64,000 bases of DNA from assembly GCA_902810695.1 (NCBI GenBank), contig CADDYV010000007.1, positions 1-64,000 of the forward strand, in the 5' to 3' direction. This DNA is from Actinomycetota bacterium. GTDB taxonomy: Bacteria > Actinomycetota > Rubrobacteria > Rubrobacterales > Rubrobacteraceae. Each line of letters begins with the position of its first letter. Position 1 is the stretch's first letter. The notes under the pieces are model-generated. The model saw only the letters and a program-made list of their open reading frames with translations, had not been told where the DNA came from and searched no databases. Position numbers and translations under genes: made by a program. This document shows, one piece after another, positions 32,109-35,310 of this stretch.

Positions 32109-33338
32109 CTACAAGCCCGCGGCGCGGCGCAGTTTGTCGGCGCGCGTGGTCTCCTCCCAGGTAAATCCGGGCTCGTTGCGGCCAAAATGGCCGTACACGG
32201 AAGTCGCGCCGTAGATCGGGCGCTGGAGATTCAGATCCCGGATTATCGCGCCGGGCCTGAGATCGAAATGTTCCTCGATCAGAGAGTGGATGAGCAACGG
32301 GTCCACGTTCTCGGTGCCGAAGGTGTCTACAACCAGGCTCACGGGATGGGCGACGCCGATGGCATAGGCAATCTGGACCATGCATCTCTCGGCCAGCCCC
32401 GCAGCGACCACGTTCTTGGCGACCCAGCGGGCAGCGTAGGAGCCAGAGCGGTCTACCTTGGTGGGATCTTTGCCCGAAAACGCGCCCCCGCCATGCGGAA
32501 CAGCCCCGCCGTAGGTGTCTACGATGATCTTGCGCCCCGTGAGACCCGTATCCCCCTGCGGTCCGCCGATCACGAACCGCCCCGAGGGATTGACCAGTAC
32601 ATCGGTTTTGTGCCTGTCGAAGAGCTCCTCGGGCATCACCGGCTCGATAACCGCCTCCAGGAGATCCCCTTTGAGGCGTCTTTCAATACCCTCCCGGTGC
32701 TGGGCGGAGATGAGGATTTTTTCGACAGCCACGGGCCTCCGGCCCTCGTAGCGTACGGTTACCTGGCTCTTTCCATCTGGCCTGAGGTAGTCCAGTTCCC
32801 CGCTCTTCCTGACTTCGGCGAGGCGGCGGGTCAGGGCGTGCGCCAGCATCAAGGGAAGCGGCATCAGCTCCTCCGTCTCCCGGCAGGCATAGCCAAACAT
32901 CATCCCCTGATCACCGGCCCCGAGTTCGTCGAGTTCCTTACCTTCACGAAACTCGAGAGCGTGATCAACTCCCCGGGCTATATCCTCGGACTGCGGGTCT
33001 ATGGAGGTCAGAACCCCGCAGGTCTCGGAATCGAAGCCGAATTTGGCGCGGGTGTAGCCGATCTCGGAGATCTTGTTCCTGACGAGGGTGGGTATGTCCA
33101 CGTAGGTTTTGGTAGTGATTTCCCCGGCTACTATGACGAGGCCCGTAGTCACCAGCGTCTCGCAAGCCACGCGGCTTACCGGGTCATCTGCCAGGGCTGC
33201 GTCGAGGATGGCGTCGGAGATTTGGTCGGCCAGCTTGTCCGGGTGTCCCTCTGTTACGGACTCCGAAGTGAAAAGATGCGAAGTACGGGCACCGAACCGC
33301 CTGCGGGATTCGGGATCCGAAACTGTCTTCTCGACCAT
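32109..33338 (-). CDS. metK: S-adenosylmethionine synthetase
   Basis: Makes S-adenosylmethionine from methionine and ATP. The 409-residue product has [17 protein letters not shown], the signature [12 protein letters not shown], the P-loop-like [16 protein letters not shown] and a C-terminal [15 protein letters not shown] directly follows the coaBC stop (TAGATG). The coaBC-metK-priA order is usual for Actinobacteria. Confidence 0.97.
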
Positions 33339-34418
33339 CTAGCTCCACCTCTCCTTACCCATTTCCTTTTGCATAACGTCTAAAATGGTCCGGGCAACTT
33401 CTCTCTTCGATGCCCGACGCACGAAGCGTTCCCCACCCCAACCCGCTATGTAGACCTCATTCTCTTCGGTGCCAAACCCTATATCAGGACGCGAGATGTC
33501 GTTGCCAACAACGAGGTTTGCTCCCTTCAAGCGAAGCTTCTCGCGAGCCTCGGAAGCAGGGTCTCCATGCGTTGCGGAGAATCCTACCACAAACAGATCC
33601 GGATTCCTGTCGCGCACTTCTTTGAGTATGTCTGCGGTCTCCACAAGCTCTATAGTAAGCCTGTCTTTTCGCCGGATCTTGTTACTCTGCCGCGAGGCGG
33701 GCGTAAAGTCCGAAACCGCCGCCGCCATGATCAGCGCGTCGAACTCCCCAGCCCGCCGCAGAACCTCCTCCCTCATTTCCGCGAATGTTTCTACGGCGAT
33801 CCACCCGCCCCCCGGCTCGATCTCGTCTACATTAGCGGCCACGATCGAGACTTCCGCCCCGAGACGCCGGGCCTCCCGAGCAATAGCCCGCCCCATCTTC
33901 CCCGAAGAGCGGTTGCCCACGAACCGCACGCTGTCTATCGGCTCCCTCGTACCCCCGGCCGTAACCAGCACCCGGAGCCCGCCGAGCACCCCGCCCATCC
34001 TGCCAAGTACCCTCGTGACTATCTCCCCGGCGGAAACCATTCTCCCTAGCTCTCTCTCAAGTATTATGCGGTTATCTCTCCGCAAGAGTTCGATGTTCCG
34101 CCGGACAGCGGGGTGCGATGCGGTGGCGCCGTCGAGTTCGGGGGCCACGACGGTTGGAGTTCTGCCGGCTATGGGGTCGAGGCCGTGGGCGAGACGAGCG
34201 AGGGTTCCGCTGGTTGCCGGGGCGAAGATCAGGGCCTGCGGGGTTTCGGTGGGTGAATCCACCAGGCTCGCCACTTCGGCGAACGCGGATGGGCCGATAA
34301 AATCCTTCGTTCCCGGTTCCAGGGAAGCCTCGATCTGGTGTCCGGCCTCGGCGAGTTCTCGCGAAATCTCCGGGGCCAGGAGCGCGCCGGGGCCCGGACC
34401 GACGGAGAGAAAGATCAC
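33339..34418 (-). CDS. coaBC: CoaBC-like protein: intact phosphopantothenoylcysteine synthetase domain, degenerate decarboxylase domain
   Basis: 359 residues. The C-terminal half (about 147-359) is a normal CoaB: VLVTAGGTREPIDSVRFVGN, SSGKMGRAIA, MAAAVSDFTP and the later NKIRRKD lysine. The N-terminal half (1-140) keeps the CoaC flavoprotein outline (APATSGTLARLAHGL) but lacks the catalytic His normally before the second strand, reads PELD instead of PAMN at 93-96, and has no ACGE-type cysteine loop before GRM. It is thus unlikely to decarboxylate. GTG start, the only initiator after an in-frame stop. Confidence 0.85.
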   Translation of the reverse strand: MIFLSVGPGPGALLAPEISRELAEAGHQIEASLEPGTKDFIGPSAFAEVASLVDSPTETPQALIFAPATSGTLARLAHGLDPIAGRTPTVVAPELDGATASHPAVRRNIELLRRDNRIILERELGRMVSAGEIVTRVLGRMGGVLGGLRVLVTAGGTREPIDSVRFVGNRSSGKMGRAIAREARRLGAEVSIVAANVDEIEPGGGWIAVETFAEMREEVLRRAGEFDALIMAAAVSDFTPASRQSNKIRRKDRLTIELVETADILKEVRDRNPDLFVVGFSATHGDPASEAREKLRLKGANLVVGNDISRPDIGFGTEENEVYIAGWGGERFVRRASKREVARTILDVMQKEMGKERWS

Positions 34419-34430
34419 ATCTTTACTTCA

Positions 34431-34745
34431 TCAGGCAGCGCCCTGGTCTTCCTCTTCGACGCCCTGATCGCCCCCGGCTCTGTCTGCCTCCTGGCTCTCT
34501 TCTTCCTGGGTTTCTGTCTTGAAGCCGACCCTGAGCTTGCCTTCCCTCAACTCTTCGATAGCGATGGTGAGAGGGTGCTGGGAGCGGGTGTGGACCTGGG
34601 GACCGGGAATTCCGAGAGACTCGTTCAGGCCGAGGGTAGTGGTGTACTCGTTGATCTGGCGCGCCCGCTTGGCCGTAGCGAGAACCAGGGTATAGCGGGA
34701 GTCTACCTTCTCCAGCAGTTCGTCTATCCTGAGATCATCCAGCAT
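34431..34745 (-). CDS. rpoZ: RNA polymerase omega subunit
   Basis: Small RNA polymerase subunit that supports beta-prime folding. The 104-residue product has DELLEKVDSRYTLVLATAKRARQI, the conserved omega core, and HPLTIAIEELREGKLRV, followed by an acidic tail. ATG preceded by AAAGGAGG; overlaps gmk by 11 bases, the classical gmk-rpoZ pair. Confidence 0.94.
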   Translation of the reverse strand: MLDDLRIDELLEKVDSRYTLVLATAKRARQINEYTTTLGLNESLGIPGPQVHTRSQHPLTIAIEELREGKLRVGFKTETQEEESQEADRAGGDQGVEEEDQGAA

Positions 34746-35310
34746 CTTTGCCTCCTTTTACGATTTTTCTCATCAGGTCTATCATATCCTGGCTCGCCTG
34801 CTCGCGTTCGGCGTTCACCACCTCGTAGTCGAACTCCTTGCGAGCCTCGACTTCCTTGAGCGCGGTCGTCATTCGCCGCTCGACGGCTTCCGAGTCCTCG
34901 GTCGCCCTGCCGGTCAGACGCTTGCGTGTTTCCTCCAGGGTAGGTGCCCTGACGAAGACCATAACAGCGTCCGGTCGGCGCTTCTTTACCTGCCTCGCTC
35001 CCTGTAGCTCTATCTCCAGGATCACCGACCGGCCGCTCTCCAGAAACTCTTCCACCCGGCGTTCGGGAGTACCGTAAAGGTTGCCGGAGTATTCCGCCCA
35101 CTCCAGGAAACGCCCCTCCTCGATCCACCTCTCGAACTCCTCGCGGGTAAGAAATATGTAGTCCTTGCCGTCTACTTCGCCAGCCCGGGGCTTGCGGGTG
35201 GTCGCGGAAACCGAATACGCCAGCTCCGGTACGGCGGCGAGGGCGGCCCGGATCAGGGTTGACTTCCCCGCGCCCGAAGGGCCCGAGACGACGATCAGTC
35301 TTCCTCGCAA
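34735..35310 (-). CDS. gmk: Guanylate kinase
   Basis: Phosphorylates GMP to GDP. 191 residues; P-loop GPSGAGKST at 10-18, SVSATTRKPRAGEVDG (GMP binding), YFLT-like YIFLTREEF, and the lid region LTGRATED. TTG start inside the mihF 3' end (16-base overlap). Confidence 0.96.
   Translation of the reverse strand: MRGRLIVVSGPSGAGKSTLIRAALAAVPELAYSVSATTRKPRAGEVDGKDYIFLTREEFERWIEEGRFLEWAEYSGNLYGTPERRVEEFLESGRSVILEIELQGARQVKKRRPDAVMVFVRAPTLEETRKRLTGRATEDSEAVERRMTTALKEVEARKEFDYEVVNAEREQASQDMIDLMRKIVKGGKDAG

Follow-up and report, generated by a model that had tools for sequence, protein, structure and literature searches.

In mycobacteria, CoaBC is targeted by drug development, and whether its CoaC half has a role in assembly matters for this reason. 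The enzyme is a dodecamer built around its CoaC halves, and each CoaB dimer links protomers of different trimers (PMC7794376). Catalysis has been assigned to the His and the Cys, and binding of the substrate carboxylate to the Asn (PMC6168597). Our analysis of the Rubrobacteraceae suggests that, in this fused and essential enzyme of central cofactor metabolism, a gene of foreign origin apparently took over from one half, which was then kept across the family as a pseudoenzyme. Rubrobacter was not named among the best 15 of 47 matches of a literature search that combined it with CoaBC or CoA biosynthesis.

The gene that we studied lies in the window, i.e., the whole 64,000-nucleotide stretch of Rubrobacteraceae DNA that was analysed. 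It occupies 33339..34418 on the minus strand, starts with GTG, and encodes 359 aa, with a CoaC-like half predicted to be non-catalytic followed by a CoaB half (open reading frame, Pfam, TIGR00521, and alignment to 6TGV, the CoaBC of M. smegmatis and nearest solved structure). Synteny identified its conserved neighbours on the same strand, gmk (guanylate kinase, 34735..35310), rpoZ (RNA polymerase omega, 34431..34745), and metK (SAM synthetase, 32109..33338), in the order gmk-rpoZ-coaBC-metK. The three genes flank coaBC in 26 of the 29 other family loci; the remaining three are truncated at contig ends and have metK alone beside coaBC. The CoaB half (phosphopantothenate-cysteine ligase, aa 147-359; 33342..33980, minus strand) matches 5INT and 4QJI, and the Pfam DFP/CoaB profile covers aa 147-324 at 7e-58. 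Its motifs VRFVGNRSSGKMG, AAAVSDFTP, NKIRRK, and GNDIS are in place, and the preliminary description was right to call this half intact. The full protein exceeds the curated cut-off of the TIGR00521 equivalog (226.1 vs 219.7 bits), which still passes it as bifunctional, and this is misleading. One family locus (L080 in G029, apparently Rubrobacter marinus SCSIO 52915, 2052397-2053484) has an interrupted CoaBC frame with pieces in different frames, which may be either a sequencing error or a real break.

The N-terminal half is very different. The degenerate CoaC domain of HFCD fold (about aa 1-140; 33999..34418, minus strand) is supported by AlphaFold, by TM to 6TGV, and by a remnant match to Pfam Flavoprotein, which scores 26 bits and covers only positions 11-82 of the 162 in the profile. 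Alignments to 6TGV and to 40 actinobacterial CoaBCs show that the catalytic-His segment preceding the APATANTLA strand (H-x-x-x-A-R-W-A-D) is missing, and the site reads FAEVASLVDSPTETPQA (aa 46-62; 34233..34283, minus strand). The APAM(H/N) of 6TGV aligns with APEL(D), so that PELD replaces PAMN or PAMH at aa 93-96 (34131..34142, minus strand). The whole substrate-clamp ('ACGE') loop is gone from aa 121-132 (34023..34058, minus strand). Furthermore, the FMN-loop motif TGGIAAYK reads GPGPGALLAP and the Thr of strand 2 is replaced, mostly by Glu, which suggests that this half has lost FMN binding. The preliminary description, whose interval corresponds to aa 1-141 of CoaBC, had reported the loss of the catalytic His, and in fact the entire segment is missing in both the 6TGV and the family alignments, with no sign in the latter of catalytic residues displaced but present. 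It had also noted PELD in place of an invariant PAMN and the lack of the ACGE cysteine loop. Both observations are real, but PAMN is not invariant (PAMH in 26 of 40 CoaBCs from the phylum, PAMN in the other 14), and the lack of the clamp Cys is by itself a poor diagnostic marker, because this Cys was matched by pattern in only 12 of these 40 proteins, others having GGD or similar. Since most actinobacterial CoaBCs lack the clamp Cys, we dropped its absence as proof of a dead domain. Even so, the domain has clearly lost its catalytic elements, since these are missing as a whole and P-E/D-L-D resembles neither PAMN nor PAMH.

The preliminary description had proposed to check if the losses are shared across the lineage, and they are. 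We analysed 40 genomes of the order, all from a single family (Rubrobacteraceae), and detected a whole or partial coaBC orthologue in 36 of them. The losses are identical in all 32 full-length aligned orthologues, where columns 93-96 are P-E/D-L-D in nearly every sequence and the F46-P67 segment spans some 21 residues with no conserved His. Neither the window protein nor any of the 32 thus has the His, PAM[NH], and clamp of a catalytic CoaC half. A sequencing or assembly error in the genome of the window, itself fragmented into 148 contigs, might be thought sufficient to explain such losses. Yet, 32 different assemblies, some of them single-contig genomes, show them too, and because these agree we rejected this explanation, whose probability is negligible. 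When a sample of 297 phylum genomes was searched with a profile built from the degenerate domain, scores of at least 109 bits occurred exclusively within the family; outside it, scores were at most 86 bits and came from longer CoaBC frames, and all 40 of these actinobacterial CoaBCs that we read are normal. In two CoaBC loci of another family of the phylum (L112 in G198 and L131 in G307, family f43), PAMN is kept but the His segment is shortened (e.g., DAYPHLERAD). This family lies near the Rubrobacteraceae in the CoaB tree and perhaps represents an intermediate state.

The degenerate domain has the marks of a structure that natural selection maintains. The AlphaFold model has a pLDDT of 89.7 for the whole CoaBC and of 96 for the first 138 residues. 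The domain alone superimposes on the CoaC half of 6TGV with a TM of 0.87, which places it in the HFCD fold (PF02441), and EpiD, AtHal3, human PPCDC, and UbiX rank behind as matches (TM of about 0.8 to EpiD and AtHal3). In nine informative pairs of related species, dN/dS (omega) was 0.22-0.47 in the degenerate domain and 0.11-0.21 in the CoaB half, i.e., 1.3 to 3 times higher in the former, and 14 positions of the domain are invariant in 21 sequences. We therefore take it as a folded, retained pseudoenzyme domain under purifying selection. The outline of the CoaC fold is indeed kept in the predicted model, as first described, and the suggestion that the domain was kept for structure or regulation appears to hold, given the predicted fold and the constrained omega.

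If the CoaC half were dead, the cell would need a separate phosphopantothenoylcysteine decarboxylase. This had been anticipated in the preliminary description, which proposed to search the genome for a stand-alone CoaC, and the expectation is borne out at the genome level. The genome of the window encodes only two PF02441 proteins, CoaBC and an intact stand-alone CoaC of 186 aa (G000:C14:55245-55763). The latter has CoaBC/CoaC as best models, and carries both the catalytic His (EHVSLARWAD) and PAMN (WAPAMNPEMW). Its clamp, MASSEEEPG (MAS-EEE), has no Cys, which is likewise absent in Deinococcota relatives (0 of 45). The gene was found in 33 of the 40 family genomes, including every one that is at least 90% complete; the seven genomes without it are 60-88% complete. 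All 33 proteins keep EH[VI]xLARW and AMN, and across the family they are 71-82% identical to that of the genome of the window. CoaX and CoaD are also present in this genome, which therefore uses the CoA route. The neighbours of the stand-alone gene are NUDIX, RDD, and SDR genes, outside any CoA operon, and its link to the pathway is thus one of homology and co-occurrence only. On these grounds it apparently supplies the missing decarboxylation. Some Rubrobacteraceae have a further PF02441 protein with a higher score (L003-L009, L011, and others; 115-136 bits), probably UbiX, which the genome of the window lacks. Several family genomes also encode another family of stand-alone flavoproteins (L073-L077, in G025, G022, G024, G010, and G015), which carry motifs of the GH[VM][ED]LA.W and PN.N-like types and are possibly cysteine decarboxylases of another kind.

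The two parts of the system seem to have different histories. Among GTDB genomes, the nearest relatives of the stand-alone CoaC outside the family are the CoaC halves of Thermaceae CoaBCs, most with about 50-54% identity. CoaC of this type is common among 81 Deinococcota genomes, and its frames have the length needed to encode a fused CoaBC, except for one that sits at a contig end. In a careful tree, the stand-alone CoaCs and 19 Deinococcota CoaC halves were joined with support of 100/99, apart from all others, and they share a W[FW] insertion and a Cys-less clamp of about equal length. In a quick tree, the CoaB half clusters instead with Actinomycetota (97). The contrast between these affinities leads us to infer an ancestral CoaB half and a stand-alone CoaC that is foreign or that at least descends from another lineage. 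The latter was probably acquired by an ancestor of the family, although the direction of transfer is inferred, because the stand-alone genes and the Deinococcota halves each form one clade and are mutual sisters, not nested. The Deinococcota affinity argues, only indirectly, against an origin of the stand-alone CoaC by duplication of the native half. When the degenerate domain was included in a tree, its branch was too long for it to be placed, and a clade with the stand-alone CoaC was not rejected (p-AU 0.197). In Deinococcota themselves, all 20 tested genomes without a CoaC match (G422, G423, G434, G448, and 16 others) also lacked a CoaB (PF04127) match, which was present in 14 of 14 control genomes. 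One Deinococcota clade thus seems to lack CoaBC altogether, implying precursor uptake or an unknown replacement.

Overall, we have good confidence, from sequence comparisons and the structural model, that CoaBC catalyses only the CoaB reaction in this family, that its CoaC half is a retained pseudoenzyme, and that a separate Deinococcota-type CoaC decarboxylates. The ancestral CoaBC would have remained at its locus when the foreign CoaC arrived, and the native CoaC half would then have lost catalysis and yet stayed. The CoaB half, a CTP-dependent phosphopantothenoylcysteine synthetase, would make phosphopantothenoylcysteine. The dead half should fold but not decarboxylate it, because it lacks the catalytic His, the substrate-binding Asn/His motif, and the clamp; the 186-aa CoaC would act on the product of CoaBC in its place. 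Because CoaC halves build the dodecamer core, the retained domain most likely holds CoaB halves in an oligomer, or docks the separate CoaC for product handover. Its retention could also result from a new ligand or partner instead of structure.

These data bear on other readings of the degenerate half. HFCD proteins vary, and many actinobacterial CoaBCs have PAMH for PAMN or miss the clamp Cys, so one might think that the half still decarboxylates through other residues. We find this very improbable: the F46-P67 segment has no conserved His, clamp and PAM motif are both gone, and an intact CoaC accompanies the degenerate CoaBC in every well-assembled genome. The half might instead be a decaying relic, whose function is limited to keeping the CoaB half soluble. 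The lost pieces and the higher omega relative to the CoaB half fit this idea, which we nonetheless regard as unlikely, since the half persists as a folded, in-frame domain in all 32 full-length orthologues, with omega well below 1 and the invariant positions described above.

The two CoaC proteins may also form a mixed oligomer, like Cab3 with Hal3/Vhs3 in yeast, in which the decarboxylase would require the dead half as a structural or FMN-site subunit. Yeast assembles its PPCDC as a heterotrimer from paralogues that are catalytically incomplete (PMC6168597), HFCD active sites sit between subunits (PMC7794376), and the dead domain is constrained and keeps its predicted fold. Still, a stand-alone CoaC with both His and Asn could suffice alone, and the dead half, which brings not one of the three catalytic groups known, has seemingly lost the FMN-loop motif, which makes an obligatory partnership doubtful. 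By analogy with yeast, one can speculate that the Rubrobacteraceae make CoA through a two-protein complex, where a pseudoenzyme CoaC half recruits the horizontally acquired Deinococcota-type CoaC, as a bacterial counterpart of the heteromeric PPCDC; we hold this at best as a tentative idea. Our preferred reading remains a CoaB-only CoaBC with a separate decarboxylase, and it makes the CoaBC of this family a natural test for a non-catalytic role of the CoaC half in CoaBC assembly.

Each of the known systems shares part of this arrangement. The bifunctional CoaBC (Dfp; TIGR00521; 6TGV) has the same domain order, the CoaB half, and an N-terminal CoaC-type fold, but the N-terminal half of the Rubrobacteraceae is shorter by about 40 residues and lacks the catalytic-His segment, PAM[NH], and clamp. 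In the split CoaB and CoaC of streptococci (TIGR02113, TIGR02114) the decarboxylase is also on a separate gene, whereas the Rubrobacteraceae synthetase still bears a dead CoaC half and their stand-alone CoaC is of the Deinococcota type, scoring 124.8 bits, below the cut-off of the streptococcal family (261.4). The CoaC half of Deinococcota CoaBCs resembles the stand-alone CoaC in identity (Thermaceae), W[FW] insertion, Cys-less clamp, and sister position, but is fused to CoaB, while the Rubrobacteraceae CoaC is separate. Finally, the yeast PPCDC (Hal3/Vhs3 and Cab3) also keeps in the CoA pathway a PPCDC paralogue that has lost catalytic residues; yet, in yeast the residues missing from one subunit are provided by another, whereas the dead half of the Rubrobacteraceae supplies none.
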